From contig NZ_JAFBBQ010000001.1 in NCBI RefSeq assembly GCF_016907255.1, positions 2,170,001 through 2,234,000 on the forward strand: a stretch of 64,000 nt of DNA. The letters run 5' to 3'. Below, one piece after another: positions 20,677-46,642 of the stretch; position 1 is the first letter of the stretch, and each line of letters opens with the position of its first letter. The stretch is from Microbacterium keratanolyticum. Lineage in GTDB: Bacteria; Actinomycetota; Actinomycetes; Actinomycetales; Microbacteriaceae. Made by a program: the position numbers and the translations under genes. Below the pieces are notes generated by a model that was given only the letters and a program-made list of their open reading frames with translations, ran no database searches and was not told the DNA's origin.

Positions 20677-20707
20677 GGTTACGCGCACGGTGTCGGGTCG
20701 CGAATGT
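20677..20707 (+). promoter_or_regulatory. Flagellar sigma-type promoter of fliC
   Basis: GGTTAC (20677-20682), a 16-base spacer and CGCGAATGT (20699-20707) match the shared flagellar promoter, except that ATAG is replaced by AATG in the -10. The predicted start is near 20714, which gives a leader of about 50 bases. Confidence 0.65.
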
Positions 20708-20714
20708 CGGATAT

Positions 20715-20760
20715 GCAGGCCCACGGATGGGCCCGCAGACAACCCCATAACCACGGAGGA
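20715..20760 (+). promoter_or_regulatory. Candidate CsrA binding leader of fliC (hairpin plus Shine-Dalgarno site)
   Basis: GGCCC (20718-20722) pairs with GGGCC (20729-20733) and shows ACGGAT in a six-base loop; GC/GC pairs outside an A-C mismatch lengthen the stem. A second ACGGA occurs in the ribosome binding site ACGGAGGA (20753-20760), 5 bases before the ATG. GGA in a hairpin loop plus GGA in the Shine-Dalgarno sequence is the known layout of CsrA control of flagellin in Bacillus. CsrA binding here is inferred. Confidence 0.7.
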
Positions 20761-23810: not shown

Positions 23811-23841
23811 GGTTACGCCCGTCGCGCCTTGTCGCGATAGT
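23811..23841 (+). promoter_or_regulatory. Flagellar sigma-type promoter of the flgB operon
   Basis: GGTTAC (23811-23816), a 16-base spacer and CGCGATAGT (23833-23841) match the shared motif exactly. The promoter begins 6 bases after the stop of the FliT-position gene. Confidence 0.75.
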
Positions 23842-23845
23842 TCCC

Positions 23846-23885
23846 AGTGAGCACGGATCGCTCGACTCCCGGCCACGGATCGGCC
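23846..23885 (+). promoter_or_regulatory. Tandem GGA-loop hairpins in the flgB leader (candidate CsrA sites)
   Basis: Hairpin A is GAGC (23849-23852), loop ACGGATC, GCTC (23860-23863), extended by AGT/ACT across one bulged G. Hairpin B is GGCC (23871-23874), loop ACGGATC, GGCC (23882-23885). The GGA triplets are 22 bases apart and begin 14 bases after the -10. The same arrangement occurs before fliH and fliP. CsrA prefers ANGGA in hairpin loops, so these look like paired CsrA sites on one dimer. Confidence 0.7.
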
Positions 23886-23910
23886 TGTCTCCCCACATCC
23901 GGAGTTCCCT

Positions 23911-24258
23911 GTGCTCGATTCCGTAACTGCGAACGCCCTGTCCGGCGCGCTCGACGGCCTCGCCCTGCGTCAGCGCGCGATCGCCGACAACATCGCGAAC
24001 ATCAACACCCCCGGCTATCAGGCCCAGCGAGTGCTGTTCGAAGACGCCCTGCGCCGCGCCGTCGAGAGCGGTTCCGGTGTGGCACAGCCCACCGTCGAGC
24101 GCTCCCTCGAGCCGACGCGCCTCAATGGCAACAACGTCAACCTCGACACCGAGACCCTCTCGAACATCGACACCGTGCTGCGGTTCCAGTTCGCCAGTCA
24201 GGCGCTGAGCGGGCAGGCGGCCTCCATCACCAAGGCGATCGGTCAGGCCTCCGCATGA
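23911..24258 (+). CDS. flgB: Flagellar basal-body rod protein FlgB
   Basis: The proximal rod protein has 115 residues and the N-terminal rod/hook motif LDGLALRQRAIADNIANINTPGYQAQRVLFEDAL. The start is GTG with GGAG 6 bases upstream. It is the first gene of flgB-flgC-fliE-fliF-fliG, and its stop overlaps the flgC start. Confidence 0.94.
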   Translation: MLDSVTANALSGALDGLALRQRAIADNIANINTPGYQAQRVLFEDALRRAVESGSGVAQPTVERSLEPTRLNGNNVNLDTETLSNIDTVLRFQFASQALSGQAASITKAIGQASA

Positions 24259-24650
24259 CCTTCGACGCCATCGGCATCGCCGGCACAGGACTGAACGTGC
24301 ACCGCAAGTGGCTCGACGCCCTCAGCGACAACATCGCGAACGTGAACACGGCGACCCCCGCCGGCGCAGAGGCCTTCCGGGAGAAGCTCGTGACCGTGCA
24401 GGCGGGGACCCAGGGCCCGGGTGTCTTCGTCACCGGTGTCGTCGAGTCCGAAGCCGCAGCCAAGCTCGTCTACGACCCTGAGCACCCCTACGCCAACGAA
24501 CAGGGATACGTGCAGTACCCGAACGTCGATCTGGGTGATCAGATGAGCATGCTCATCCTTGCGCAGCGTGGCTACGAGGCCAACGCCGCCGTGGTCGATC
24601 GCGCCAAGACCACCTACGAGGCGGCCCTGCAGATCGGACGCAACGGATGA
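24255..24650 (+). CDS. flgC: Flagellar basal-body rod protein FlgC
   Basis: The proximal rod protein has 131 residues. It has the N-terminal motif FDAIGIAGTGLNVHRKWLDALSDNIANVNTATP and the C-terminal rod motif NVDLGDQMSMLILAQRGYEANAAVVDRAKTTYEAALQIGRNG. The ATG overlaps the flgB stop in ATGA, and the end overlaps fliE in the same way. A longer in-frame start at 23847 is inside the leader hairpins and is rejected. Confidence 0.95.
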   Translation: MTFDAIGIAGTGLNVHRKWLDALSDNIANVNTATPAGAEAFREKLVTVQAGTQGPGVFVTGVVESEAAAKLVYDPEHPYANEQGYVQYPNVDLGDQMSMLILAQRGYEANAAVVDRAKTTYEAALQIGRNG

Positions 24651-24973
24651 GCCTGTCGGTCGACGGTGTCTCCGGGGTCAGCGGACTCGGCGCGCTGAGC
24701 TTCGAGACCGCCGAGGTCGCCGGGGGCGCCGGGAGTGCCGATCCGGCCACCGCAGGCGCGTTCGCGTCGTCGCTCACCGGGGCGATGGAGAACCTTCAGC
24801 AGCTCCAGTCGACGTCGAACGAACTCGCCGTGAATGCGGTCACCGGTGACCTGCAGGACATCCATCAGGCGATGATCGCCTCGGCGCGGGCGTCGGTGAC
24901 GCTCGACCTGGTCGTCGCCGTGCGCGACCGGGGAGTCGCGGCGTTCAACGACATCATGCGGATGCAGGCCTAA
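24647..24973 (+). CDS. fliE: Flagellar hook-basal body complex protein FliE
   Basis: FliE joins the MS ring to the rod. The 108-residue protein has a variable N-terminus and the conserved C-terminus LAVNAVTGDLQDIHQAMIASARASVTLDLVVAVRDRGVAAFNDIMRMQA. It overlaps flgC by four bases and is followed by fliF after 3 bases. Confidence 0.94.
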   Translation: MSLSVDGVSGVSGLGALSFETAEVAGGAGSADPATAGAFASSLTGAMENLQQLQSTSNELAVNAVTGDLQDIHQAMIASARASVTLDLVVAVRDRGVAAFNDIMRMQA

Positions 24974-24976
24974 GCC

Positions 24977-26611
24977 ATGCCCAAGATGCTCACCAGCTCC
25001 TTCGAGCGCACGAAGCAGATCGTCTCCGGCTTCTCGCTCGCCCAGCGGACGATCGCCCTGATCGGCGTCGCGCTGCTGGTCATGGGTGCCATCGCGCTCG
25101 GGTCCTGGCTCGCGAAACCGCAGATGAGTCCGCTGTTCACCGGGCTGAGCGCAGCGGATGCCTCGGCGGTGGTGGAGCAGCTCAAGTCCGCCGGTGTCGC
25201 GTACGAACTCACCGACGGCGGAGCCACGATCCTCGTCCCGGACGCGCAGGTCTACACGCAGCGCCTCGCGGCCGCGGCATCCGGTCTTCCGGGAGACAAC
25301 CGGGCGGGCTACACGCTGCTGGATGAGATGGGCGTGACGGCCAGTGAGTTCCAGCAGTCGGTGACGTACAAGCGTGCGATCGAGGGGGAGCTCGCGAGCA
25401 CGGTCAGCGCCATGAAGGGCATCAGCAGCGCCAGTGTGCAACTGGCGATCCCCGAGGAGAGCGTTTTCGTCTCCGAGAAGCAGCACCCCACCGCATCCGT
25501 GTTCGTCAAGACGCAGAGCCGCGCGCTCGACAACGACCAGGTGCAGGCGATCGTCCACCTCGTCAGCGCATCTGTGGCAGGCATGCGTCCCGAGGACGTC
25601 GCTGTCACCGACCACAACGGCAACGTCCTCTCCGCGGTGGGCGCAGGACTCACGGGCAGCGCCTCGACCCAGGCATCCGAGCATGAGTCGAAGGTCGCGC
25701 TCGCCGTCAACAAGATGCTCGAGACCATCGTCGGCCCGGGCAACGCCACCGTCACGGTCTCGGCCAACGTCGCCAACTCCACATCCGAGCGCCTCGATGA
25801 GACCTACACCGCGCCGGAGGGAGACCTCAGTGCGGCGGAGCAGATCAAGAGCGAGATCTACACGGGCGGGCCCGGAGCCGGCACGGGCGTGCTCGGACCC
25901 GACAACATCGCCGTCCCCAACGGCGCGGAGGGGGCCGGTTCCTACGAGCTCGAAGAGACCTCGCGCAACAACGCCGTGAACAAGACCACCGAGAAGACCG
26001 TCACCCCCGCGGGCGAGGTCACCCGTCAGACCGTCAGCATCGCCCTGAACCGCGAAGCCGTCAGCGGGGTCACCGCCGCGCAGATCGAGGCTCTTGTCGC
26101 GACAGCCGCGGGAATCGACACGGAACGCGGCGACACCGTCGCCGTCGAGTTCGTGTCGTTCAGCCAGACCGGTGCGCAGGCGGCGCAGACCGCGCTCGCC
26201 GCGGCGGAGGCAGAGCAGGCAGCGAAGCTGCAGCAGGAGCTGCTCCGCTCGGCGATCATCGGCGGCGCCATTCTGCTCGCCACGATCGTCCTCGTCGTGT
26301 TCCTCGTGCTGCGCCACCGCAAGAAGCACCGCGTCGCCTACACCGATGCCGGTCCGATCGAGTACCTGGCGACGTTGACGGAGACCGAGGAGGAGAAGCT
26401 GCGCGCGCTCAAGGGCCTGTCCAAGCCGCCGCTGGAAGCATCCGTCCCGCCGAAGGTGCTGCCGCAGATCGGGCTGGACATCGAAGAGGAGCCGGAGGTG
26501 GATCAGGTGCTCGTGGAGCGTCGGCGCCGTGAGATCGATGAGATGGCCAAGAGTGACCCGCAGGTGATCGCAAGCGCACTGGCCAACATGATGGATGAGG
26601 CCAGGGCATGA
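24977..26611 (+). CDS. fliF: Flagellar MS-ring protein FliF
   Basis: The 544-residue protein forms the membrane ring of the basal body. Membrane helices lie near 22-41 (IALIGVALLVMGAIALGSWL) and near 420-440 (AIIGGAILLATIVLVVFLVL). The YscJ/FliF ring-building motif is seen in the first periplasmic part (VEQLKSAGVAYELTDGGATILVPDAQVYTQRLAAAASGLP). The cytoplasmic tail that binds FliG ends in ALANMMDEARA. Confidence 0.96.
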   Translation: MPKMLTSSFERTKQIVSGFSLAQRTIALIGVALLVMGAIALGSWLAKPQMSPLFTGLSAADASAVVEQLKSAGVAYELTDGGATILVPDAQVYTQRLAAAASGLPGDNRAGYTLLDEMGVTASEFQQSVTYKRAIEGELASTVSAMKGISSASVQLAIPEESVFVSEKQHPTASVFVKTQSRALDNDQVQAIVHLVSASVAGMRPEDVAVTDHNGNVLSAVGAGLTGSASTQASEHESKVALAVNKMLETIVGPGNATVTVSANVANSTSERLDETYTAPEGDLSAAEQIKSEIYTGGPGAGTGVLGPDNIAVPNGAEGAGSYELEETSRNNAVNKTTEKTVTPAGEVTRQTVSIALNREAVSGVTAAQIEALVATAAGIDTERGDTVAVEFVSFSQTGAQAAQTALAAAEAEQAAKLQQELLRSAIIGGAILLATIVLVVFLVLRHRKKHRVAYTDAGPIEYLATLTETEEEKLRALKGLSKPPLEASVPPKVLPQIGLDIEEEPEVDQVLVERRRREIDEMAKSDPQVIASALANMMDEARA

Positions 26612-27705
26612 GCCTGCTCGGCGGCACGACCGCGGCCACTGCGGTCCTCGATGAGCAGTCGGAGCCCACGCCCCCTGTGGCCCAGAGTCCCGCAGAGGCC
26701 GCGGCCCCCGCGATCTCCGGGCTCCGCAAGGCAGCGATCGTGCTCCTCAACCTCGATCGGGCGGCGAGCGTCGAGGTGCTCCGGCACCTGGGCGAGGAGC
26801 GAGCGGAAGCCCTCGCTGCGGAGCTGACGCAGCTGGGCGGTGTGGACGTCGCGACCACGGCGCGCGCTCTGGGCGAGTTCCGACGGATCGCAGCAGGCGG
26901 GGCTGTCCCCTCGCGAGGGGGACAGGATCTCGTGACCGGGCTGCTGGAGACCGCGTTCGGCCGCGAGAAGGCGGTCGGCATGGTCGGACGCGTCATGTCG
27001 CAGGGGAGCGTCTCGTTCGACTTCCTCAACGCGGCGGATCCGGGACAGCTCGCGACCGTCCTCGAGGGCGAGCTGCCGACGACCGTGGCCGTGGTGCTCG
27101 CGAACCTCCGAGCGGATCGCGCGGCGGCGGTTCTCGCCGAGCTGCAGGATCCGCTGCGCACCGATGTCGCCCAGGCGATCGCGACGATGGGTACGGCCAC
27201 TCAGGAGGCCATCTCGATCGTCGCCGAGTCGCTGCGCTCGCGCACCGGCGTCTTCGCGATGCGCGACATGCATGAGGCGATCGGCGGTGTTCAGCCGCTG
27301 GTGGAGATCATCAACCGCGCCGACACGGCTCTGGAGAAGGCGCTGCTGACCGGTCTGGAGGAGCGCGATCTCTTCCTCGCCGAAGACATCCGCAGTCGGA
27401 TGGTCACGTTCGCCGACATCGTCCGGCTCGAGGATCGCGACGCACAGCTCGTGCTGCGAGGCATGGATCTGCGCATGCTCGCGATGGCGCTCAAGGGCGC
27501 CGACGAACAGATCAGCGAAGTGATCGCGCGCAACATGACCGTCCGGAACCGGGAGAACCTCGAAGAGGAGACGCGCACGCTCGGACCTGTGCGGATGCGT
27601 CAGGTCGACGAGGCCCGCACCGAAGTCGTGCGCATCATCCGCGAACTCGAGGCCTCCGAGCAGATCCACATCTCGCGCGAGGACGAGGACGAATTGATCG
27701 AATAG
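26608..27705 (+). CDS. fliG: Flagellar motor switch protein FliG
   Basis: FliG couples stator torque to the rotor. The protein has 365 residues with a disordered N-terminal 30-residue extension, then the N, middle and C domains (SGLRKAAIVLLNLDRAASVEVLRHLGEE, LEGELPTTVAVVLANLRADRAAAVLAEL, and the torque region FADIVRLEDRDAQLVLRGMDLRMLAMALKGADEQISEVIARNMTVRNRENLEEE). The charged residues of the torque helix are kept. It ends the flgB operon; a new flagellar promoter follows 26 bases later. Confidence 0.96.
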   Translation: MSLLGGTTAATAVLDEQSEPTPPVAQSPAEAAAPAISGLRKAAIVLLNLDRAASVEVLRHLGEERAEALAAELTQLGGVDVATTARALGEFRRIAAGGAVPSRGGQDLVTGLLETAFGREKAVGMVGRVMSQGSVSFDFLNAADPGQLATVLEGELPTTVAVVLANLRADRAAAVLAELQDPLRTDVAQAIATMGTATQEAISIVAESLRSRTGVFAMRDMHEAIGGVQPLVEIINRADTALEKALLTGLEERDLFLAEDIRSRMVTFADIVRLEDRDAQLVLRGMDLRMLAMALKGADEQISEVIARNMTVRNRENLEEETRTLGPVRMRQVDEARTEVVRIIRELEASEQIHISREDEDELIE

Positions 27706-27731
27706 AAACCACGATCGCGGCAGAGCAGCGA

Positions 27732-27761
27732 GGTTACGCGCCCGCTCCATGTCGCGATAGT
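27732..27761 (+). promoter_or_regulatory. Flagellar sigma-type promoter of the fliH operon
   Basis: GGTTAC (27732-27737), a 15-base spacer and CGCGATAGT (27753-27761) match the shared flagellar promoter. Confidence 0.75.
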
Positions 27762-27768
27762 CGGAAGA

Positions 27769-27805
27769 GAGCATGGATTGCTCGACATCGCGCCAAGGAT
27801 CGGCG
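27769..27805 (+). promoter_or_regulatory. Tandem GGA-loop hairpins in the fliH leader (candidate CsrA sites)
   Basis: Hairpin A is GAGC (27769-27772), loop ATGGATT, GCTC (27780-27783). Hairpin B is CGCC (27791-27794), loop AAGGATC, GGCG (27802-27805). Compared with the flgB leader, both sides of stem B have changed in a way that keeps pairing, while GGA in the loop is kept. That is evidence for selection on RNA structure. The ribosome binding site ACAGGATG (from 27818) has a third GGA. Confidence 0.7.
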
Positions 27806-27830
27806 AGCCGCTTACCTCACAGGATGTGTC

Positions 27831-28463
27831 GTGCCCGATCCCGCTTTCACCCCGTTGGTGGTCCCTCGCGTCGGCGAGGCTCCCACGGACGCGCGCGGAG
27901 AAGCGGAGCGCGCACGCGTCCGAGGATATGCGGCTGGCTTCGCCGAGGGGCGCAGGATCGCTCTTGAAGAGCATCGCGCGCAGCACCTGATCGATCAGGA
28001 GCGCCTGCGCGCGCAGGAGGAGTCATCCCGCCGCAGCGTCGCCTCCGGGCTCGAGACGCTTCGCGCGGCGGCGGATGAGCTCCACCGTCAGACAGAGGCG
28101 CTCACGGCCATGGCCGTGGACGAGATCGAACGTCTCGCCGTCGAACTCGCCGAGATGATCCTCGACGCGGAGCTGTCGGACCCTGCGCGATCGGCCGCGC
28201 ATGCGCTGCGCCGCGCCGTCGCCGAGGTCCCGATCGATCGTTGGATCCGCGTCAGCCTGAACGAGCGGGACCTCTCCCAACTCGCCGCGCACGAGTCGCA
28301 GCTGCTCGACGGCATCGAGGCGGTTGCCGCAGGGCACGTCGACGCGGGCGGAGCGGTCGTCGAGGTTCCGCACGGCGCGGTGGACACCCGGGTCTCGCGG
28401 GCACTGGCCCGGGCGCGCAGCGCGCGTGCGGGCGTCGATGATGCCGAGGGGGCATCGGGATGA
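27831..28463 (+). CDS. fliH: Flagellar assembly protein FliH
   Basis: FliH is the stator-like regulator of the export ATPase FliI. The 210-residue protein has GxxxG-like helical heptads (RVRGYAAGFAEGRRIALEEHRAQHLIDQERLRAQEESSRR) and a C-terminal domain related to V-ATPase subunit E (ELAEMILDAEL, then VPIDRWIRVSLNERDLSQL). The start is GTG at 27831, and its stop overlaps the fliI ATG. Confidence 0.9.
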   Translation: MPDPAFTPLVVPRVGEAPTDARGEAERARVRGYAAGFAEGRRIALEEHRAQHLIDQERLRAQEESSRRSVASGLETLRAAADELHRQTEALTAMAVDEIERLAVELAEMILDAELSDPARSAAHALRRAVAEVPIDRWIRVSLNERDLSQLAAHESQLLDGIEAVAAGHVDAGGAVVEVPHGAVDTRVSRALARARSARAGVDDAEGASG

Positions 28464-29779
28464 GCACAGCGACCTGGGAGCGCGTACTGCACGCGGCGGC
28501 ACCGGAGCGCTCCGGAACAGTGAAGGCCGTCGTCGGACTCGGGGTGGAAGTGCTCGGGCTGGATGCTGCCGTCGGTGATCGCGTGCAGATCGAGTCATCC
28601 GGACAGCGCCCGGTTGATGCAGAGGTCGTCGCGGTCGACGGCGCCTCAGCACGGTGCATGCCACTCGGCCCGGTCGATGGAATCACCGCACGGGCGCGTG
28701 TGCGTCACGGGGGCGCCGCTCTTCAGGTTCCGACGGGGGCGGCGCTGCTCGGGCGCGTCCTGGACGGGCTCGGCCGTCCGATCGACGGCAAGGGGCCCGT
28801 GGATCCCTCCGCGCTGTACGTCCCGTTGGACAACGAGACGCCCAGCATCATGCAGCGTCAGCGGATCCAGACCCAGCTCGGCCTGGGCGTGCGTGTGCTC
28901 GACACGATGACTCCCGTGGGCACCGGACAGCGTCTGGGGCTTTTCGCCGGATCGGGCGTCGGCAAGTCCTCCCTGATGTCGATGATCGCCCGCGGATCCA
29001 CCGCCGACGTCTCTGTCATCGCGCTCGTCGGGGAGCGCGGACGTGAGGTCCGTGAGTTCCTCGAGGATGACCTCGGCCCGGAGGGGCGTGCGCGGGCGGT
29101 CGTTGTCGTGGCCACCTCCGACCAGCCGGCGATGGCTCGGCTCCGGTCGGCGTTCGTCGCGACGCGGATCGCGGAGCAGTTCCGTGCCGATGGCAAGAAC
29201 GTGGTGCTGATGATGGATTCGCTCACCCGCGTGGCGATGGCGCAGCGCGAGATCGGACTCTCTGCCGGTGAGCCTCCGGCGACGCGCGGGTATCCGCCAT
29301 CGACCTTCTCCGTGCTAGCCCGGCTGCTGGAGCGCGCGGGCACAGGCGAGGTCGGATCCATCACGGGCCTCTACACGGTGCTCGTCGACGGAGACGATCA
29401 CAACGAGCCGATCGCGGACGCGGCGCGCGGGCTTCTCGATGGGCACGTCGTGCTGGATCGGGGCCTCGCGGTGCGGGGTCATTTCCCCGCGGTGGACGTT
29501 CTGGGCTCGGTGTCGCGCGTCGTGTCGAAGATCACCACGCCGCAGCAGCGCAAAGACGCGGTGACGTTGCGCAGCGTGCTCGCCGCGAGGCGCAGCGCCA
29601 ACGACCTCATCGACATCGGCGCCTACCGGCCGGGCGCGAACCCCCTTGTCGACGCAGCCCTGACCCATGCGGGCAGCATCGACGGGTTCTTGACACAGGC
29701 CATGGACGACCGGGCGGACGCGGGGGACTCGTGGCGTCGTCTGGCCGCGCTCACCCACGACTTCGGAGGACTGATCTGA
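28460..29779 (+). CDS. fliI: Flagellar export ATPase FliI
   Basis: The 439-residue protein is the F1-beta-like ATPase of flagellar type III export. Walker A GSGVGKSS is at 164-171, Walker B VLMMDSLTR follows, and the family block AQREIGLSAGEPPATRGYPPSTFSVLARLLERAG is intact. It overlaps fliH upstream and fliJ downstream. Confidence 0.97.
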   Translation: MSTATWERVLHAAAPERSGTVKAVVGLGVEVLGLDAAVGDRVQIESSGQRPVDAEVVAVDGASARCMPLGPVDGITARARVRHGGAALQVPTGAALLGRVLDGLGRPIDGKGPVDPSALYVPLDNETPSIMQRQRIQTQLGLGVRVLDTMTPVGTGQRLGLFAGSGVGKSSLMSMIARGSTADVSVIALVGERGREVREFLEDDLGPEGRARAVVVVATSDQPAMARLRSAFVATRIAEQFRADGKNVVLMMDSLTRVAMAQREIGLSAGEPPATRGYPPSTFSVLARLLERAGTGEVGSITGLYTVLVDGDDHNEPIADAARGLLDGHVVLDRGLAVRGHFPAVDVLGSVSRVVSKITTPQQRKDAVTLRSVLAARRSANDLIDIGAYRPGANPLVDAALTHAGSIDGFLTQAMDDRADAGDSWRRLAALTHDFGGLI

Positions 29780-30204
29780 TGGCATTCCCGCTGGCAGGAC
29801 TGCTGCGCGTGCGCGGCACTCAGGAGCGCATCGCGGCCGAGCAGCTGTCGCTCGCGAGCGAACGACACAGACTGGCGGAGGCAGCGGTGTCGACGGCAGA
29901 GGAATCGGTGGCGGCCATCGACACCGAGATCCAAGACGGCGCAACGCTGCTTGCGATGGCCGCTGCGCGATCCGCCGGTGCCAGCATGCTCGCGGATCTG
30001 CGAGCCCTCACGGAGATGACAGCAGCGGAGCAGGCGGACGCCCAGACGACCCACGTCGCCGCACGCCGCGAGCTCAAGGGGCTGGAGCGGCTGGAGTCCG
30101 CGCATCAGAGTGAAGCAGACAAGGCGGATCGGGACCGTGAGCAGAGCGCGCTCGACGAGATCGCCGTCGTCATGACGGTGCGCCGTGGAGGGCAGGACGC
30201 ATGA
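29779..30204 (+). CDS. fliJ: Flagellar protein FliJ
   Basis: The 141-residue coiled-coil protein starts at an ATG that shares one base with the fliI stop. The long heptad sequence (LRVRGTQERIAAEQLSLASERHRLAEAAVSTAEESV and ARRELKGLERLESAHQSEADKADRDREQSALDEIAVV) and the position between fliI and fliK fit FliJ, which activates FliI and links it to FlhA. Sequence similarity alone would be weak. Confidence 0.85.
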   Translation: MAFPLAGLLRVRGTQERIAAEQLSLASERHRLAEAAVSTAEESVAAIDTEIQDGATLLAMAAARSAGASMLADLRALTEMTAAEQADAQTTHVAARRELKGLERLESAHQSEADKADRDREQSALDEIAVVMTVRRGGQDA

Positions 30205-31457: not shown

Positions 31458-31471
31458 GAGGGGCATCACCT

Positions 31472-31924
31472 ATGCCTGTTGCACCTGTGACCCAGACGCC
31501 ACCGCCCACGTCCATCCACACCGGGACCACCACGGATCCGAGCGCGCGAAAGCAGACCCTCGATGGTGAAGTGTTCCTCCGCCTGCTGGTGACGCAGCTG
31601 ACCAACCAGGATCCCTCGAGCCCCATGGACACGAACGCGATGATCTCGCAGACGACCGAGCTGGCGATGATGGAGCAGATCACGGCGCTCACGAACACGA
31701 GCAGCGAGGCCTTCGCGCTCAATATGCGTCAGGCAGCCACAGCCATCATCGGCCATGAGGTCTCGTACAAGGGACCCGACGGCGCCACGATCACGGGGAT
31801 CGCCACGAAGGTCTCCTTCGACGGGCCGATCCCGCTCGTCACCGTCGGCGGCAAGTCCGTCTCGCTGGACGCGCTCACCGCCATCACCTCCACCACGCCC
31901 ACGGCCGACGCGCCGGCCGCCTGA
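31472..31924 (+). CDS. flgD: Flagellar hook assembly scaffold FlgD
   Basis: FlgD caps the growing hook. The 150-residue protein has the conserved N-terminal part FLRLLVTQLTNQDPSSPMDTNAMISQTTELAMMEQITALTN and a short C-terminal domain (ATAIIGHEVSYKGPDGATITGIATKVSFDGPIPLVTVGGKSVSLDALTAI). It lacks the longer FlgD Tudor/FnIII region of Salmonella, as in Bacillus-type short FlgD proteins. Confidence 0.93.
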   Translation: MPVAPVTQTPPPTSIHTGTTTDPSARKQTLDGEVFLRLLVTQLTNQDPSSPMDTNAMISQTTELAMMEQITALTNTSSEAFALNMRQAATAIIGHEVSYKGPDGATITGIATKVSFDGPIPLVTVGGKSVSLDALTAITSTTPTADAPAA

Positions 31925-31954
31925 TCACCGACCTTCCCAGAAAGAGAACCGCAC

Positions 31955-33121
31955 ATGCTCCGTTCGCTCTACTCCGGAATCTCCGGTCTCCGTTCGCACC
32001 AGACCATGCTCGATGTCACGGGCAACAACATCGCCAACGTCAACACCGCAGGCTTCAAGGGCTCCTCGGTCCTGTTCCAGGATTCGCTCTCGCAGATCAT
32101 CGGGAACCCCGGAATCCCCGCGGACCAGGTCGGCGGACGCAACCCCTCGCAGGTGGGTCTCGGCGTGCAGGTCGGCGCCGTGCGCACCAACTTCGCTCAG
32201 GGCGCCCCGCAGTCCACGGGCCGCGGCGGTGACCTGATGATCGCCGGCGACGGCTTCTTCGCAGTCCGCGCCGGCGGCGAGACGCTCTACACCCGTGCGG
32301 GTGGCTTCACCTTCGACGCACGCGGTCAGATGGTCACCGCCGACGGTGCGATCGTGCAGGGGTGGACGGCCCAGGATGGCGTCGTCGACAGCGGGCAGAT
32401 CCCCGGCAACATCACGCTGCCGCTGGATGCGGTCTCCGCAGCACGGGAGACGACGAACGCTGCGGTCACCGGCAACCTCCCGTCGACGGCCGCGGTGGGC
32501 GATGAGCTCATCCGCGATGTCACCGTGTACGACGCGCAGGGTGCGGCCACGACGCTCAGCCTCGTCTTCACGCGCACTGCGACGGGCTGGAACGTCGCCG
32601 AGCCGAACAGCGGCGCCACCGGCTCGCTCAGCTTCACTGACGGCAAGCAGGCGGCTCCCGGGCTGACCCTCACCGCCGGGAGCATGTCGATCGACCTCAC
32701 CGCCGTCACCGGCTACGCCGACCTCAGCACGGTGGCGATCACCGAGCAGGACGGCACCGCCGCAGGAACGCTCAAGTCGTACGCCGTGACCAGCGACGGA
32801 TCGATCGTCGGCACCTTCAGCAACGGTCAGACCGAGACCCTCGGCAAGGTCGCGATGGCCACCTTCGCCAACCCGGAGGGACTTGAGAAGGCCGGTGGCA
32901 CCGCCTACCGCATCTCCGTGAACTCGGGCGCGCCCCAGTACGGCGAGGCCGGTCAGGCCGGGTTCGGCAGCCTGGTCTCGGGTGCGCTCGAGATGAGCAA
33001 CGTCGATCTCTCTCAGGAGTTCACCAACCTGATCGTCGCGCAGCGGGGTTTCCAGGCGAACGCGCGCATCATCACCACGAGCGATGAGGTGCTGCAGGAG
33101 CTCACCAACCTCAAGCGCTGA
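31955..33121 (+). CDS. flgE: Flagellar hook protein FlgE
   Basis: The 388-residue protein has the N-terminal motif MLRSLYSGISGLRSHQTMLDVTGNNIANVNTAGFKGSS, a central FlgE domain, and the C-terminal motif SNVDLSQEFTNLIVAQRGFQANARIITTSDEVLQELTNLKR. It is the only member of the FlgE/FlgF/FlgG family in the window, so it may also serve as distal rod, or rod genes lie elsewhere. It ends the fliH operon; the next flagellar promoter starts 47 bases later. Confidence 0.94.
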   Translation: MLRSLYSGISGLRSHQTMLDVTGNNIANVNTAGFKGSSVLFQDSLSQIIGNPGIPADQVGGRNPSQVGLGVQVGAVRTNFAQGAPQSTGRGGDLMIAGDGFFAVRAGGETLYTRAGGFTFDARGQMVTADGAIVQGWTAQDGVVDSGQIPGNITLPLDAVSAARETTNAAVTGNLPSTAAVGDELIRDVTVYDAQGAATTLSLVFTRTATGWNVAEPNSGATGSLSFTDGKQAAPGLTLTAGSMSIDLTAVTGYADLSTVAITEQDGTAAGTLKSYAVTSDGSIVGTFSNGQTETLGKVAMATFANPEGLEKAGGTAYRISVNSGAPQYGEAGQAGFGSLVSGALEMSNVDLSQEFTNLIVAQRGFQANARIITTSDEVLQELTNLKR

Positions 33122-33167
33122 CGCCCATCCGTCACCGGCGCCCCCGACGCCTGACCGCGCCCGTCCT

Positions 33168-33198
33168 GGTTACCCAGGACGGGCCGGGTCGCGATAGT
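33168..33198 (+). promoter_or_regulatory. Flagellar sigma-type promoter of the flbD-motAB-fliMNO unit
   Basis: GGTTAC (33168-33173), a 16-base spacer and CGCGATAGT (33190-33198) match the shared motif. The predicted leader has no pair of GGA-loop hairpins, in contrast to the flgB, fliH and fliP leaders. Confidence 0.72.
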
Positions 33199-33236
33199 CG
33201 GAAGCGACACCCCTACCCCCTTCCGGAGTTCCCTCG

Positions 33237-33464
33237 ATGATCATCGTCACCCGCCTCGACCACACCCGGTTCGCGGTCAACCCCGACCTGATCGAGCGCG
33301 TGCACGAGGCCCCCGACACCACGCTGCATGTGGTCGGCGGACGGGTCTACGTCATTCAGGAGTCCCTGCCTGCGCTGATCGACCTCATCGTCGAGTACCG
33401 GGCGCGCGTCCTCGCGAGCGCGCAGACACTTGCGCAGCACCAGCAGCAGCAGTCGGAGGCGTGA
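33237..33464 (+). CDS. FlbD family flagellar protein
   Basis: The 75-residue protein MIIVTRLDHTRFAVNPDLIERVHEAPDTTLHVVGGRVYVIQESLPALIDLIVEYRARVL matches the small FlbD/SwrD family found ahead of motA in Gram-positive flagellar operons; Bacillus SwrD raises motor torque. It should not be confused with the NtrC-type FlbD of Caulobacter. The C-terminus is Gln-rich. The stop lies 2 bases before the motA ATG. Confidence 0.88.
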   Translation: MIIVTRLDHTRFAVNPDLIERVHEAPDTTLHVVGGRVYVIQESLPALIDLIVEYRARVLASAQTLAQHQQQQSEA

Positions 33465-33466
33465 GC

Positions 33467-34258
33467 ATGGATCCCGCATTCCTCATCGGCATCGTCATCG
33501 CCTTCGGCGCCCTGGTCGCGATGATCAACCTGGAGGGCGCGAGCATCACCGCGCTGCTCCTGCCTGCCCCGATGATCCTCGTCCTCGGATCGACCATCGG
33601 CGTCGGCATCGCCAGCCACACCATGCGAGACACGATCACCGCCGTCACGAGCCTCGGCCGCATGGTGCGGGGGCCGAAGACGACGCCCGCTGCCGTGATC
33701 CCCTTCCTCGTCGGCTATGCGGAGCGCGCCCGCGCAGAGGGCCTCCTGTCGCTGGAGCAGGAGCTCGATGGCGCGCCCGACGCCTTCACACGCAATGCTC
33801 TCCAGGCTCTCGCCGACGGTGCAGACGCCGAAGACATGCGCATGGTGATGGAGGACGAACTGTCCGCGGTCGCCACTCGCAACCGCGTTGCCTCCAAGTT
33901 CTTCTCCTCCCTCGGCGGCTACGCGCCGACCATCGGCATCGTGGGCACCGTCGTCTCTCTGACGCACGTCCTGGAGAAGCTCGACGAGCCCGACCACCTC
34001 GGACCGATGATCGCCGCAGCGTTCGTCGCGACCCTGTGGGGGCTGCTCTCCGCCAACTTCATCTGGAACCCCATCGCGGGTCGACTCGGCCGCATCGGCG
34101 CGGTCGAGATCGAACGCATGACCCTCGTCATCGAGGGGACGCTCGCGATCCACTCCGGTAATCCTCCGCACCTCGTGCAGGAGCGGCTGGACGCGCTGTG
34201 CAGCCAGAAGCCGAAGCAGAAGAAGCAGAAGGCGCCTGTCGTCGAGGACGAGCAGTGA
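33467..34258 (+). CDS. motA: Flagellar stator protein MotA
   Basis: MotA forms the proton channel ring of the stator with MotB. The 263-residue protein has four membrane helices, the cytoplasmic loop with charged residues that touch FliG (PFLVGYAERARAEGLLSLEQELD), and the helix 3-4 region LGGYAPTIGIVGTVVSLTHVLEKLDEPDHLGPMIAAAFVATLWGLLSANFIWNPIA. The ATG at 33467 is chosen because GGAGG is 7 bases upstream; the GTG at 33461 is too close. A Lys/Gln/Glu tail ends the protein. Confidence 0.95.
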   Translation: MDPAFLIGIVIAFGALVAMINLEGASITALLLPAPMILVLGSTIGVGIASHTMRDTITAVTSLGRMVRGPKTTPAAVIPFLVGYAERARAEGLLSLEQELDGAPDAFTRNALQALADGADAEDMRMVMEDELSAVATRNRVASKFFSSLGGYAPTIGIVGTVVSLTHVLEKLDEPDHLGPMIAAAFVATLWGLLSANFIWNPIAGRLGRIGAVEIERMTLVIEGTLAIHSGNPPHLVQERLDALCSQKPKQKKQKAPVVEDEQ

Positions 34259-35064
34259 CCGCAGTCCGCCGGGGCAGGCGTGCCCTCGATGACGACGGCC
34301 ACGACGAGCCCGACGAGCGATGGGCCGTGTCCTACGCCGACATGGTCACGGTGCTCATGTGCCTGTTCATCGTGATGTTCGCGGTGTCGACCATCGACAA
34401 GGGCAAGTTCGAGCAGCTCGCCAACAGCCTCGCCGCGGGCTTCGGGCAGGAGGACACCGGCAAGGGAGCCGACACCACCGAAGGTCTCGTGATCCCCCCG
34501 GAGATGGTGGACGAGAACGGGGTCGAGGATCTCACGGAACGGGCCGCCGCCGAGTACGAGTCGCTCGAAGAGCTGCGCGACCAGATGTACAACGCACTGG
34601 CCGCGCAGGGTCTCCAGGACACCGTGGCGTTCGTGATCGACGAGCGCGGCCTGAAAGTCGGGCTGGTGGGCGCGGAGACGTTCTTCGACAACAACAGCAC
34701 CGACCTCACCCCCAAAGCGGACGCCGTGCTCAACGCCATCGGCGACGTCCTCGTCGGCGTCGACAACGAGGTCAGCGTGGAGGGCCACGCCGACCACCGT
34801 GTCGCCGCGACGCCCTTCGCGACGAACTGGGAGCTGTCCGGCGGGCGGGCGACGCAGGTGGCGCGCTTTCTCGTCGAGCATGAGGGTGTCGCCGGACCCC
34901 GTGTACGAGCGACGAGCTTCTCCGACACCCGTCCTGTCGTCCAGGGCGACACGATCGAAGCGCTCGCGAGCAACAGACGCGTCGACATCGTCGTCGAATC
35001 CACCGAGGAGGAGCGCGTGCGCGCTCTCATCCCCGCGCTGTCCGGCGCCCCCGTGAAGGGCTGA
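34255..35064 (+). CDS. motB: Flagellar stator protein MotB
   Basis: The 269-residue partner of MotA has a short basic N-terminus, one membrane helix (RWAVSYADMVTVLMCLFIVMFAVSTI) with the proton-binding Asp of YADM, a plug segment and a C-terminal OmpA-like peptidoglycan-binding domain (VEGHADHRVAATPFATNWELSGGRATQVARFLVEHEGV). The GTG start overlaps the motA stop. The Ser/Thr pattern around Asp suggests a proton-driven motor, but this is only an inference. Confidence 0.95.
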   Translation: MTAVRRGRRALDDDGHDEPDERWAVSYADMVTVLMCLFIVMFAVSTIDKGKFEQLANSLAAGFGQEDTGKGADTTEGLVIPPEMVDENGVEDLTERAAAEYESLEELRDQMYNALAAQGLQDTVAFVIDERGLKVGLVGAETFFDNNSTDLTPKADAVLNAIGDVLVGVDNEVSVEGHADHRVAATPFATNWELSGGRATQVARFLVEHEGVAGPRVRATSFSDTRPVVQGDTIEALASNRRVDIVVESTEEERVRALIPALSGAPVKG

Positions 35065-35067
35065 CCC

Positions 35068-35991
35068 GTGACCGCCACGTACCAGGAGGCCGACATGATC
35101 GCATCGAGTGTGCTCGACGACCCCGCGAAGCGCTATCCCGCGTATGACTTCAGCCGTCCCGCGCAGCTGGGGCGCGACAGCACCCGCCATCTCGAGGCGG
35201 CTTTCGAGGCGTTCGCCCGACTGTGGTCCTCGCAGCTGACCGCCAAGGTGCGCGTCCGCACGCACATCACGCTGGAGAGCGTGGCCCTCACCTCCCACGA
35301 GGAGTACGCGCAGACGCTTCCGTCGACCACGGCGATGATCGCCGGATCCTTCGCCGACCGCGATGAGCCGTGCGTGATCCAGTTCGGTCTCGACAGCGCG
35401 CTGCTCTGGGTGGTGCAGATGATGGGCGGGAAGAGCACGACCCTTCCGGAGTCGCGCACCTTCACGCCGATCGAGCACGCGCTGGTTCGCCATCTGATGG
35501 ATGAGACGCTGGAGCACCTCTCGTCCAGCCTCGGCACTCTGCTGCCGGGAGACTGCGTCTTCGCCGGGGTGCACTACAACCCGCAGTACATGCAGGTCAT
35601 CTCCGCGGCGGCCCCGGTCGTCGTCGCCCGCTATGCGATGCGTCTGGGCGAGATCGACACGGTCGCCACCGTGATGCTCCCCGTGTCCGCGATCGTGGAT
35701 CGCCTCACCGAGACGAGCGGCGACACGGGCGCCGCGCACAGCGCCGAGCAGACTCTGGAACAGCTGCGCGCCACGCCGCTCGACATCACGCTGCGCCTCG
35801 CGCCGCTGACGATCGGCGCCGGAGAGATCCTCGAACTCGCTCCCGGCGACCTGCTGCGCCTTCCGCATTCCGAGACCACACCGTTCGAACTCATGGCAGG
35901 ATCCGCCCCGATCGCGCGAGCGACCGCGGGGGCGCGCGGGTCGCGCCTCACCTGCCAGATCACCAGCATCCACGAGGAGACCACCCGATGA
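35068..35991 (+). CDS. fliM: Flagellar motor switch protein FliM
   Basis: The 307-residue protein is the middle part of the C ring. The CheC-like middle domain (RHLEAAFEAFARLWSSQLTAKVRVRTHITLESVALTSHEEY, then FTPIEHALVRHLMDETLEHLSSSL) and the C-terminal SpoA domain (LRATPLDITLRLAPLTIGAGEILELAPGDLLRLP) are clear. The N-terminal CheY-binding motif of the LSQEEIDALL type is not recognisable; the protein begins TATYQEADMIASSVLDDP. The start is GTG, 3 bases after motB. The end overlaps fliN. Confidence 0.92.
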   Translation: MTATYQEADMIASSVLDDPAKRYPAYDFSRPAQLGRDSTRHLEAAFEAFARLWSSQLTAKVRVRTHITLESVALTSHEEYAQTLPSTTAMIAGSFADRDEPCVIQFGLDSALLWVVQMMGGKSTTLPESRTFTPIEHALVRHLMDETLEHLSSSLGTLLPGDCVFAGVHYNPQYMQVISAAAPVVVARYAMRLGEIDTVATVMLPVSAIVDRLTETSGDTGAAHSAEQTLEQLRATPLDITLRLAPLTIGAGEILELAPGDLLRLPHSETTPFELMAGSAPIARATAGARGSRLTCQITSIHEETTR

Positions 35992-36647
35992 GCACCTTCC
36001 AGGAGACCGCAATCGCCGCTGCCATCGCAGGCAAGCTGCCCTTCAGCGTTCCGGTGATCCCCAGCGTCTCCACCGACCCGAGCGCCGTGGGAACGGCCGT
36101 CGCCGTCACCTTCACTGGCACGCCCGGGGCGCGTCTGGCGATCCAGATCGCCGACCCCACGGCCCTCGCAGACGGGTCTGCGGAGGCGGTCCTCGCGGAT
36201 CGGCTGCACCCGATCTTCGAAGCCGCGGTGGTCGTGCTCGGTACCGGAGCTCTCAGCGACGCCGAAGAGGTTGACGCCGCGGAGTTCTTCACGGCGTCGG
36301 GCACTCAGATCTTCGACATCGTCGCTGAGGACGGCACCGTCATGGCCCGTGCGGCGGTGCGCATCGATGATGAGCGTCGTCGCAGCGGGTCGTCGGGCCC
36401 GATGCGGCTGAACCGCATCGCCGGCGTCGAGATGGAGCTGGTCGTGGAGATCGGCCGCACGCGGATGCCCGTCCGTGACGTGCTCACACTGGAGCCCGGC
36501 CGCGTCGTCGAACTCGATCGTGCTGCCGGATCCCCGGCCGACATCGTGCTCAACGGTCGCCTCATCGGCCACGGCACGGTGGTCGTCGCGGACGGCGATT
36601 TCGCGATCCGTGTCGAGCGCATCCTCGACGGCGCGCAGGACATCTGA
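35988..36647 (+). CDS. fliN: Flagellar motor switch protein FliN
   Basis: The 219-residue protein is longer than the usual FliN of about 130 residues. It has an N-terminal FliN/CheC-like part of about 125 residues and the C-terminal SpoA domain (GVEMELVVEIGRTRMPVRDVLTLEPGRVVELDRAAGSPADIVLNGRLIGHGTVVVADGDFAIRVERIL). FliN forms the bottom of the C ring and docks FliH for export. The gene overlaps fliM by four bases. Confidence 0.93.
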   Translation: MSTFQETAIAAAIAGKLPFSVPVIPSVSTDPSAVGTAVAVTFTGTPGARLAIQIADPTALADGSAEAVLADRLHPIFEAAVVVLGTGALSDAEEVDAAEFFTASGTQIFDIVAEDGTVMARAAVRIDDERRRSGSSGPMRLNRIAGVEMELVVEIGRTRMPVRDVLTLEPGRVVELDRAAGSPADIVLNGRLIGHGTVVVADGDFAIRVERILDGAQDI

Positions 36648-36650
36648 GCC

Positions 36651-37106
36651 ATGGACGAGATCCTGGTCGTCGTCCGGGTCGTCGTCTCGCTGGCGGCGGT
36701 GCTCGGCCTCATGCTGTGGCTGGGGCGACGGCTGCAGAAGGGGCAGAACACGCGGAACAACCCACTCGCCGGTCTCGTGCCTGCGAAGCTCGCGGAGCGT
36801 TTCGTCCCCTCCGGGCCGGCCCGCCCGCGGGCGCGAGCGCAGGCAGCGGAGAAGATCACGGTCGTCGCCCGTGCCGGTCTCGGTGGACGGGCGCAGCTCG
36901 TCGTCGCGGAGTTCGGCGGCGTTCGCTACGTTCTGGGCGTCACCGAGCGGGATATCCAGGTCGTGGACACCCTGGGTGTTCCCGCGGAGGTCTCGGCAGA
37001 GCAGCCCGCGGAGGCCATCGTGACCGCCACCCCGGACGTCGTGGGGGAGCGTCGCGCCGCCCGCCTCGCCCGCTTCGAAGGCATCGCCGCCGCTGCCCGG
37101 CAGTAG
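36651..37106 (+). CDS. fliO: Flagellar biosynthetic protein FliO
   Basis: FliO helps to assemble the FliP export pore. The 151-residue protein has one N-terminal membrane helix (VVVRVVVSLAAVLGLMLWLGRRLQKG) and a cytoplasmic part with the FliO pattern ITVVARAGLGGRAQLVVAEFGGVRYVLGVTERDIQVVD. It begins 3 bases after fliN and closes this unit. A new promoter precedes fliP, so fliO and fliP are in different units here. Confidence 0.88.
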   Translation: MDEILVVVRVVVSLAAVLGLMLWLGRRLQKGQNTRNNPLAGLVPAKLAERFVPSGPARPRARAQAAEKITVVARAGLGGRAQLVVAEFGGVRYVLGVTERDIQVVDTLGVPAEVSAEQPAEAIVTATPDVVGERRAARLARFEGIAAAARQ

Positions 37107-37133
37107 TCCCTCCACGAGTGACCTGCGCCCTCC

Positions 37134-37164
37134 GGTTACGGGGCGCGCCGCTCCTCGCGATAGT
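37134..37164 (+). promoter_or_regulatory. Flagellar sigma-type promoter of the fliP operon
   Basis: GGTTAC (37134-37139), a 16-base spacer and CGCGATAGT (37156-37164) match the shared motif exactly. Confidence 0.75.
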
Positions 37165-37168
37165 TGCC

Positions 37169-37209
37169 TGCGAGCACGGATTGCTCGCACCCTCGGCTAC
37201 GGATCGGCC
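37169..37209 (+). promoter_or_regulatory. Tandem GGA-loop hairpins in the fliP leader (candidate CsrA sites)
   Basis: Hairpin A has a 7-bp stem, TGCGAGC (37169-37175), loop ACGGATT, GCTCGCA (37183-37189). Hairpin B is GGCT (37195-37198), loop ACGGATC, GGCC (37206-37209), with one G-U pair. The GGA triplets are 23 bases apart, the first 14 bases after the -10 and the second 35 bases before the start codon. This is the same geometry as in the flgB and fliH leaders. Confidence 0.72.
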
Positions 37210-37235
37210 ACGTCACCCTACTCCGGAGCGTCGCT

Positions 37236-38054
37236 TTGCCCTCATCCGTGCCCGCCGCCGCTGCTGTTGCGCTCACGCGCCGGCGCCTGTGGTCACTGAT
37301 GGCGATCGCCGGGGGAATCGTCGCGGTGTCCGTGCTGACGTCCGCCGGCGGGGCCTACGCCGCCGAACCGCTGGCCGTGCCGGACGGAGAAGGCGTCACG
37401 ATCAACGGGGTCAACGGGACACCCTCCGACAGCATTCTCACGGTGCTCGGGATCACGGTGCTCAGCGTCGCCCCTGCGCTGCTGCTGATGATGTCGAGCT
37501 TCACGAAGATCTTCGTCGTCCTGGCGCTCACCCGCAACGCGCTCTCGCTGCCGTCGATCCCTCCGAATCAGGTCCTCGCCGGTCTCAGTCTGTTCCTGAC
37601 GCTGTTCATCATGTGGCCGGTGCTCGTGGACGTGAATCAGATCGCCGTGGCTCCGTTCACCGCGGGGCAGATCGATTTCGGTCGCGCCTTCGATCTCGCT
37701 CAAGCCCCGCTCAAGGAGTGGATGCTCGGCTTCACCCGCGAAGAAGACATCGCGCTCATGTATCGCGCGGCGCAGATGGAGAACCCCGCGGATGCCTCGA
37801 GCATCGAGCTGTACACGCTCGTGCCGGCCTTCATGCTCAGTGAACTGCGTGCGGCCTTCCTCATCGGCTTCATGATCTTCGTGCCGTTCCTCGTCATCGA
37901 CCTCGTGGTGGCCAGCGCCCTCATGTCGATGGGAATGATGATGCTCCCGCCGGTGATGATCTCCCTCCCGTTCAAGATCCTGCTGTTCCTGCTCGTCGAT
38001 GGGTGGGGGCTGGTCGTCACGGCGCTCGTGCAGTCCTACGGAGGTGCCCGATGA
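37236..38054 (+). CDS. fliP: Flagellar export-gate protein FliP
   Basis: FliP forms the core pore of the export gate. A signal peptide (RRRLWSLMAIAGGIVAVSVLTSAGGAYAAE) is followed by the FliP domain with LVPAFMLSELRAAFLIGFMIFVPFLVIDLVVASALMSMGMMMLPPVMISLPFKILLFLLVDGW. The likely start is a TTG with CGGAG 7 bases upstream; the longest frame begins at 37164, which lies inside the promoter -10. The product has 272 residues. The stop overlaps fliQ. Confidence 0.93.
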   Translation: MPSSVPAAAAVALTRRRLWSLMAIAGGIVAVSVLTSAGGAYAAEPLAVPDGEGVTINGVNGTPSDSILTVLGITVLSVAPALLLMMSSFTKIFVVLALTRNALSLPSIPPNQVLAGLSLFLTLFIMWPVLVDVNQIAVAPFTAGQIDFGRAFDLAQAPLKEWMLGFTREEDIALMYRAAQMENPADASSIELYTLVPAFMLSELRAAFLIGFMIFVPFLVIDLVVASALMSMGMMMLPPVMISLPFKILLFLLVDGWGLVVTALVQSYGGAR

Positions 38055-42365: not shown

Positions 42366-42608
42366 ATGCTTGTGCTCACTCGACGTGTGAATGAGAGCAT
42401 CAAGATCGGCGAGGACATCACGGTGACCGTGCTGGCCGCCGGACCCGGCGGGGTCCGGATCGGGATCGATGCACCCCGCGACCGGCGGATCAACCGGGCG
42501 GAGATCATTCAGGCGGTCGTCGATGCGAACCGTGAAGCAGTGCATTCGTCCTCCGACGACGTGGCGCAGGACGTTCTTCGCAGCGTTCTCGCGCGGCCTA
42601 ATCGATAG
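42366..42608 (+). CDS. csrA: Carbon storage regulator CsrA (RNA-binding translational regulator)
   Basis: The 80-residue protein begins MLVLTRRVNESIKIGEDITVTVLAAGPGGVRIGIDAP and keeps the RNA-contact residues Leu4, Arg7 and Arg44 (INRAEI) of E. coli CsrA. It has the longer C-terminal helix seen in Gram-positive CsrA proteins, which is where FliW binds in Bacillus. CsrA dimers bind GGA motifs in leader hairpins and block translation. fliW lies 3 kb downstream and several candidate target leaders lie in this locus. Confidence 0.96.
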   Translation: MLVLTRRVNESIKIGEDITVTVLAAGPGGVRIGIDAPRDRRINRAEIIQAVVDANREAVHSSSDDVAQDVLRSVLARPNR

Positions 42609-46503: not shown

Positions 46504-46642
46504 GGAGCAGCGTCGCTCTGATTCGCCACACCGGGCATGCGACCCTTGCTCCGGCGCTCGCCGCACTGCTAACCTGAGTGTGCGCTGAGAGCGATGGCCG
46601 CAGGAAGCGCACGTGGGTGGTTTGGGGGAATCGCTCGCTGGG

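Follow-up and report, generated by a model that had tools for sequence, protein, structure and literature searches.

How is the order of flagellum assembly kept when filament and basal-body genes are served by promoters of one type and no FlgM is found? This question is raised by the flagellar cluster of the actinobacterium Microbacterium keratanolyticum, which we analysed in a stretch of 64,000 nucleotides (contig NZ_JAFBBQ010000001.1, positions 2,170,001 to 2,234,000 of the forward strand), called the window below. There, the leaders of flgB, fliH and fliP each carry two hairpins with GGA in the loop. Judging from comparison of sequences, we consider it highly probable that these leaders represent a conserved 5'-terminal element of flagellated Actinomycetota which binds one CsrA dimer. 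Such leaders offer a concrete answer to how the assembly order is kept, namely that one RNA-binding protein reads two leader designs; if this is true, the flagellum would be assembled in order without FlgM though a single type of sigma28-like promoter serves both classes of genes. Work on CsrA comes mostly from Gammaproteobacteria, Bacillus and Campylobacter. The element is conserved over many genera, has no match in Rfam at the sensitivity used, and lends itself to testing by few base changes.

Two-hairpin leaders of three flagellar operons

It was proposed in the initial annotation of the window that the flgB, fliH and fliP leaders are built on one plan, hairpin A followed by hairpin B, and every coordinate of this proposal agrees with the sequence (Table 1). 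The distances were confirmed as well: the two GGA triplets, GGA1 and GGA2, lie 22, 22 and 23 nucleotides apart in flgB, fliH and fliP, respectively, GGA2 precedes the start codon (GTG, GTG and TTG) by 34, 34 and 35 nucleotides, and in all three leaders 14 bases intervene between the -10 sequence TCGCGATAG and GGA1. All six loops present GGA in the ANGGA context. The hairpin A sequence GAGCRYGGATYGCTC is found without mismatch at exactly three places in the genome (3.07 Mb), those in the flgB, fliH and fliP leaders, and each of the other nine matches listed contains one mismatch. A loose hairpin pattern, allowing up to three mismatches, was not enriched within the window (15 seen vs 16.5 expected), thus the hairpins owe their significance to the exact copies, to position and to conservation. 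In the search of the whole genome with a covariance model for leaders with both hairpins, these three leaders alone were found at E of 0.01 or below (E from 1e-13 to 1.7e-10); since they had been included in building the model, this result speaks for absence of the element elsewhere in the genome and is not independent support. No Rfam family matched the window's leaders at E of 5 or below (window positions 15000-50000).

The operon of the flbD-like gene, motA and motB (flbD-mot) has the same type of promoter, and its leader (window 33168-33239) is short and devoid of a GGA hairpin, which makes it an internal negative control. The hairpins are therefore not a by-product of the promoter, and the possibility that they are part of it was rejected on this ground. 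This promoter was located in the loci of 9 of 12 relatives, eight of which have no GGA hairpin behind it while one (L069) has one, as judged by eye.

The candidate ligand is encoded nearby, as had been pointed out: both csrA and fliW were recognized by Pfam in the window, in the same locus as the leaders. The CsrA protein retains L4, a residue with a role in RNA binding by CsrA, and R44, when aligned with solved CsrA/RsmE chains, and it has a C-terminal extension. A role in RNA binding was described for R44 (PMC7652899). The search for FlgM (PF04316) gave no match in this genome; the same search was positive in 3 of 14 controls, E. coli, B. subtilis and T. maritima.

Conservation of the hairpin pair at flgB

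Relatives were collected with FliI of the window, and the best 80 of the matches listed gave 80 loci, mostly from named Micrococcales genera, with Microbacterium as the nearest named relatives among them. A strict scan, demanding a stem of at least 4 base pairs and a 7-nucleotide loop, recovered the hairpin pair before flgB in 68 of these loci; 11 had no pair, and in L074 the match lay elsewhere only. We then considered 75 flgB leaders, that of the window and those of 74 of the 80 loci (six do not contain flgB), picked by the position of flgB alone. Loss of the hairpins in related species had been named beforehand as an outcome that would speak against the element; both hairpins are kept in all 75 leaders of this structure-blind choice. 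Deviations are confined to details, as loop A is shorter in L032 and L050, longer in L074 and has a mismatched closing pair in L056, and loop B is shorter in L068 and contains a displaced GGA in L056 and L073. GGA1 occupies the aligned columns in 75 of 75 leaders and GGA2 in 73, being shifted within the loop in the other two.

The spacing within these 75 leaders is informative. The distance from the start of the aligned -10 sequence to GGA1 is 21.1 nucleotides (standard deviation 0.80), and that between GGA1 and GGA2 is 22.65 (standard deviation 0.82, range 21-25). The distance from GGA2 to the start codon is 43.2 (standard deviation 9.6, range 30-66); when only canonical starts at no more than 55 nucleotides are considered (62 leaders), it is 39.6 (standard deviation 5.1), still several-fold looser. 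Tight distances to the -10 sequence, together with a loose distance to the start codon, indicate that the element is in register with the promoter, and hence probably with the 5' end of the transcript, rather than with the ribosome site. Two sites near the inferred 5' end and apart from the ribosome site make a layout of the flhDC type. In the last 15 nucleotides before flgB, GGA occurs in 40 of the 75 leaders, and ANGGA was found within the last 19 nucleotides before the start in only four of them, so that an overlap of the hag type with the Shine-Dalgarno sequence is not conserved at flgB. A further two-hairpin GGA leader was noticed in Cellulomonas (L052:2248-2293), between fliS and flgB and behind a -10 sequence of GCCGAT type; the gene following it resembles a glycosyltransferase by eye.

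RNA structure or DNA site

One argument for RNA structure had been that stem B is altered on both sides with pairing kept, and this proved correct (CGCC/GGCG in fliH vs GGCC/GGCC in flgB). Covariation in homologues, expected on the same basis, was found in distant flgB leaders and in the flagellin hairpin described below, and is weak for flgB within the order. Covariation in one alignment (A1) was biased because its rows had been picked for stems of 4 base pairs or more, and this alignment was not relied on; a structure-blind alignment (A2) and a flank-swap test were used. In the structure-blind flgB alignment, changes on both sides occur in 3 of 10 pairs, and the core stems are nearly constant within the order. 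More distant flgB stems differ yet pair, examples being GGGCA-AGGAG-TGCCC, GGCGC-AGGAA-GCGCC and GGTGC-AGGAA-GCACC, as well as GAGCG-ATGGAC-CGCTC, GCGCC-ACGGAAC-GGCGC and others.

In the flank-swap test, the 3' flanks of the GGA triplets were dealt out among the leaders in 2000 rounds. The set of distant flgB leaders consisted of 13 lying beside fliP, from genomes with a weak or missing model match, and seven at model hits, of which 20 in total 19 contributed; loci without a clear flgB start and loci of Microbacterium type were excluded. Stems of at least 4 base pairs enclosed 32 of 51 GGA triplets, vs 17.0 +/- 2.9 after swapping, and none of the 2000 rounds reached this value. For flhB of other classes, where 16 leaders had been picked by eye, after reading, as own leaders from 36 upstream stretches, the respective values were 20 of 49 and 11.6 +/- 2.7, with 4 of 2000 rounds as high; with stems of at least 5 base pairs no round was as high.

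Minimum-energy folds point in the same direction. When folded from about +1, 63 of the 75 flgB leaders place GGA in a short hairpin loop (11.5% of shuffled sequences do so), and 20 of 75 form two GGA loops 15-30 nucleotides apart (0.13% shuffled); inclusion of the untranscribed promoter gave 19 of 75. In a control, the last 65 nucleotides before eight other flagellar genes formed a GGA loop in 0 to 19%, the top value being that of fliD, and never a double one. These comparisons support the view that the two-hairpin leader is a conserved RNA element, the predicted arms of which change together at larger distance while the loop GGA is kept.

Could the repeats be DNA sites for a transcription factor acting just downstream of the promoter? 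The fixed distance to the -10 sequence and the near invariance of the stems inside the order would fit such a role, which we nevertheless consider very unlikely. A DNA site would hardly account for loops that range in length from 5 to 8 while the stems persist, for arms that change together across families and classes, or for G-U pairs at the variable pair of the flgB hairpins (7 of 74 cells). Moreover, the copies in the window lie behind the -10 sequence and on the coding strand, and the flagellin hairpin presents the same loop on a different, covarying stem.

We regard as the least probable of the explanations that the hairpins are plain stabilizers of the 5' end or a structure accommodating the ribosome, with no protein ligand. 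Their 5'-terminal position would suit this, as stem-loops at 5' ends slow mRNA decay; the invariant GGA of the loops, conserved at the aligned columns as given above, would be left unexplained, and so would the spacing of 22-23 nucleotides and the sharing of the loop with the flagellin leader.

Two side observations concern other structures. In the flgB leader of the window, the segment separating the two hairpins is paired with the Shine-Dalgarno sequence when the RNA is folded to minimum energy (window 23864-23905). For fliD of the order, 12 of 64 leaders were predicted to form a GGA hairpin loop vs 7% of shuffled sequences, a weak hint of another target.

The flagellin leader

According to the initial annotation, the candidate regulon comprised three operons. 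These three stand, and the set appears wider, since a related leader precedes the flagellin gene of the window and, in other classes, some flhB genes. The flagellin leader contains one hairpin, of CANGGANG type, and a second GGA in the Shine-Dalgarno sequence CACGGAGG. Flagellin is the usual target of CsrA and FliW. Together with csrA and fliW this makes a layout of the hag type, found complete in the window. Usable flagellin starts were available in 60 of the 80 loci, giving with the window 61 leaders, all of which have CANGGA in the upstream part; 59 of the 61 have CANGGA within the last 20 nucleotides before the start. The arms of the hairpin covary, the score being 0.268 vs 0.099 in shuffled alignments (0 of 500 shuffles as high; best slid control 0.085), and two of the five measures were not above shuffles, namely both-side changes (450 of 500) and further pair types (152 of 500). 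Of the 61 flagellin leaders, 59 show one GGA loop when folded to minimum energy, vs 16.7% of shuffled sequences.

Distribution in the order and the phylum

For wider searches a covariance model (R1) was built from 80 leaders of the order, and large sets were searched with stricter filters. Among 297 genomes of the order, a match of at least 30 bits was obtained in 62, and all 62 have csrA or fliP. No such match was found in the 206 genomes with neither gene, one of which (G221) reached 29.3 bits. In the order csrA was found in 87 genomes and fliP in 88, with both present in 84. The seven genomes with one of the two genes alone consist of 180 to 1060 contigs each; in the four that have fliP and no csrA the number is 570 to 1060.

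A sample of 346 genomes of the phylum gave no score above 30.1 bits outside the order. Weak matches in other classes were located at flhB in G517 (L149/L184) and G422 (L159/L203); apart from these two, the other matches in this sample outside the order, scoring about 30 bits or less, were taken as chance. Of the genomes in the sample that do not belong to the order, 54 have fliP, and regions beside this gene, amounting to 698 kb, were then examined from 40 of them. Five of the six best hits in these regions with the model, which was built from leaders of the order only, are flhB leaders (L184, L203, L204, L182 and L187); the sixth, in L186 (9888-9916), is a strong GGA hairpin before a flbD-like gene, unlike the arrangement in the window. 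Perfect-stem GGA pairs 22-23 nucleotides apart occur in the flhB leaders of L182, L183, L184, L187 and L201. In several further loci flhB leaders have other or partial GGA pairs. The stems of these flhB pairs, perfect or not, differ from the flgB type. Many other flhB genes in the regions fetched beside fliP outside the order lie directly behind coding sequence and have no pair.

A look-alike of the form GGCC-NNGGATN-GGCC before fliP in L181, L182, L184, L190 and L206 can be translated in frame into a conserved peptide, judged by eye to be the C-terminus of FliO, and therefore it was not counted as a further leader. In another locus of other classes (L192:7662-7709), two CANGGANG hairpins, one with a 9-base-pair stem, precede flgE. 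Thirteen genomes of the phylum have csrA with no fliP found (G309, G311, G337, G435, G581 and eight others), and CsrA may have other roles in this phylum outside flagellates.

A possible role of CsrA in the order of assembly

The spacing of GGA1 and GGA2, both in the window and in the 75 flgB leaders, falls inside the range bridged by one CsrA dimer, which was reported to connect two sites 10-63 nucleotides apart, with an optimum above 18 (PMC7652899). Binding of CsrA to a leader with two GGA hexaloops 21 nucleotides apart was described for flaA of C. jejuni, at about 50 nM (PMC4894983).

If CsrA does bind, it would clamp the two GGA-loop hairpins at the very start of mRNAs for the rod, the MS ring, the export ATPase and the export gate, and in other classes of the flhB mRNA. 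As the clamp would keep to the 5' end, at a distance from the start codon, protection or activation appears somewhat likelier than repression; given binding, we find it quite possible that the clamp protects or activates the flgB, fliH and fliP mRNAs, a direction suggested by the geometry. This would parallel the action of CsrA at E. coli flhDC. The same CsrA would repress flagellin at its Shine-Dalgarno sequence, as at Bacillus hag. Export of flagellin would then free FliW, CsrA would be switched off, and building of the basal body would give way to that of the filament, resulting in a post-transcriptional order of assembly in a genome that gave no FlgM match. Since promoters of one type serve flagellin and basal-body genes alike, opposite action of CsrA on the two leader types, switched by FliW, would provide such an order. 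A phylum-wide switch of this kind, with protection or activation of the mRNAs for basal body and export by free CsrA, repression of flagellin, and reversal of both through FliW upon flagellin export, is a tentative proposal.

Alternatively, CsrA might bind the pair and repress translation of basal-body and export proteins along with flagellin, turning the whole flagellum off, either by blocking ribosome entry or by bridging to the Shine-Dalgarno sequence. The binding step is common to this and to the proposal of protection or activation. Repression is the usual mode of CsrA action (PMC7652899), the C. jejuni flaA leader with its two hexaloops is repressed (PMC4894983), and the Shine-Dalgarno sequences of all three operons of the window contain GGA (CCGGAG in flgB, CAGGAT in fliH, CCGGAG in fliP). 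On the other hand, GGA2 lies 30-66 nucleotides from the start, at a distance less conserved than that to the promoter, and the scarcity of ANGGA near the flgB start contrasts with the regular CANGGA of flagellin leaders. Repression thus seems possible, if rather doubtful.

It is also conceivable that the double-hairpin leaders, again by binding CsrA, act as decoys, so that abundant basal-body mRNAs would titrate the protein and license flagellin translation. Titration of CsrA by the flaA leader was reported in C. jejuni (PMC4894983), two hairpins without a Shine-Dalgarno site resemble sponge RNAs, and several copies of the leader per genome are present in Microbacterium. We judge this unlikely, as most other genera show a single such leader in the strict scan of 21-kb loci, and as titration leaves the absence of the hairpins from flbD-mot unexplained.

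Several observations weigh against the proposed conserved element binding CsrA. The genomes examined from the order include 91 flagellar ones, 29 of which gave no match of at least 30 bits, and in two inspected flgB leaders (L136 and L137) no clear GGA pair is visible. As csrA and flagella nearly coincide in the order, absence of csrA is unusable as a test there; in the phylum sample the coincidence is looser, with csrA and fliP in 52 genomes, csrA only in 13 and fliP only in six; one of these six, G489 (L218), shows a weak GGA pair at flhB with no csrA found. Covariation of flgB within the order is weak, 10-46 of 500 shuffles reaching the observed value in the five measures, and strict conservation of sequence within the order exceeds the known needs of CsrA. 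The folds with both GGA loops noted above represent a minority of flgB leaders, and in the minimum-energy folds of the fliH and fliP leaders of the window one GGA loop each is present and both loops in neither. Of 17 flhB leaders with a -10 pattern, twelve fold with one GGA loop (16.5% shuffled) and three with two (0.5%). Finally, flgB starts were set by extending BLAST hits, and 3 of 75 are not start codons, so that part of the spread in the distance from GGA2 to the start is annotation noise.

Comparison with known CsrA targets

In the Bacillus hag leader, a GGA hairpin is combined with GGA at the Shine-Dalgarno sequence. Our flagellin leader resembles that of B. subtilis hag in both features and in the company of csrA and fliW, with a C-terminal extension in CsrA. 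The difference is that the Bacillus circuit is described for flagellin (PMC7652899), while here basal-body operons carry a two-hairpin version. The initial annotation was right in relating the Bacillus FliW-CsrA circuit to flagellin; flagellin as the sole known target did not stand, for action of CsrA on flagellar mRNAs other than flagellin is already known in C. jejuni and E. coli. The C. jejuni protein binds leaders of flaG, flaB and flgI (PMC4894983), and that of E. coli affects flhDC, besides binding further flagellar mRNAs (PMC7652899).

A structural parallel is C. jejuni flaA, with two GGA triplets in adjacent hairpin loops of CANGGANG type (PMC4894983). Like our bacterium, C. jejuni is a FliW-CsrA organism, and it is described as devoid of Csr sponge RNAs (PMC4894983). 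The flaA mRNA differs in encoding flagellin and in being repressed, whereas the pair found here belongs to mRNAs for rod, export ATPase and export gate (elsewhere flhB), lies at the 5' end and is accompanied by no conserved Shine-Dalgarno site at flgB.

The distance of the CsrA sites of E. coli flhDC from the start codon resembles that seen here. There, as in our leaders, a flagellar mRNA has two sites close to its 5' end, and CsrA bound to those of flhDC protects the mRNA from RNase E (PMC7652899). However, flhDC encodes a master regulator, while in the window the element belongs to the very operons for structural and export proteins.

The TwoAYGGAY RNA (RF01731), a proposed CsrA ligand, likewise has two hairpins, with loops resembling AYGGAY (PMC4333381). 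It differs from our leaders in its sources (gut samples, gammaproteobacteria and Clostridiales), and it was judged probably not cis-regulatory (PMC2864571). The RF01731 model gave no match at E of 5 or below in window positions 15000-50000, nor at E of 1 or below in L184, L187 and L013.

As to actinobacteria, CsrA and FliW are among the genes sought in one report (PMC10746217), and csrA and fliW appear in an expression table of another (PMC9019756). A published CsrA-bound leader from Actinobacteria was not found in a search of titles and abstracts, largely outside which lay subscription papers and preprints.

Features of the window

The flagellar cluster lies within the window, and the sigma28-like promoter pattern has five matches there, all on the + strand, vs 0.13 expected. 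Elsewhere in the genome it has four matches, three of which were inspected and lie in long open frames with no flagellar gene behind. The sigma factor encoded upstream of the flagellin gene is likely the flagellar sigma factor, of FliA (sigma28) type.

Table 1. Coordinates of leaders, promoters and genes discussed in the text (positions in the window)
Feature	Position	Strand	Basis or remarks
Sigma factor, regions 2, 3, 4	19810..20589	+	
Flagellin (fliC/hag) promoter, sigma28-like	20677..20703	+	GGTTAC-N15-TCGCGA
Flagellin leader hairpin, loop ACGGAT	20715..20736	+	sequence
fliC Shine-Dalgarno with second GGA, hag BS2-like	20752..20759	+	sequence
Flagellin gene (fliC/hag)	20766..21596	+	Pfam Flagellin_N, Flagellin_C
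flgB promoter, GGTTAC ... TCGCGATAG	23811..23840	+	
flgB leader hairpin A, GAGC-ACGGATC-GCTC	23849..23863	+	sequence
flgB leader hairpin B, GGCC-ACGGATC-GGCC	23871..23885	+	sequence
flgB (rod), GTG start	23911..24258	+	Pfam Flg_bb_rod
fliH promoter	27732..27760	+	
fliH leader hairpin A, GAGC-ATGGATT-GCTC	27769..27783	+	sequence
fliH leader hairpin B, CGCC-AAGGATC-GGCG, both sides differ from flgB	27791..27805	+	sequence
fliH, GTG start	27831..28463	+	Pfam FliH
flbD-like/motA/motB operon promoter	33168..33197	+	same promoter type, no GGA hairpins behind
fliP promoter	37134..37163	+	
fliP leader hairpin A, GAGC-ACGGATT-GCTC	37172..37186	+	sequence
fliP leader hairpin B, GGCT-ACGGATC-GGCC	37195..37209	+	sequence
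fliP (export gate), TTG start	37236..38054	+	Pfam FliP, 246 bits
csrA	42366..42608	+	PF02599, 73 bits, sole match in genome
fliW	45502..45882	+	Pfam FliW

Two further genes were noticed after fliW: one for an HU-like DNA-binding protein (window 46087-46503) and one for a second sigma-like protein, in which region 4 alone was recognized (window 46594-47478).

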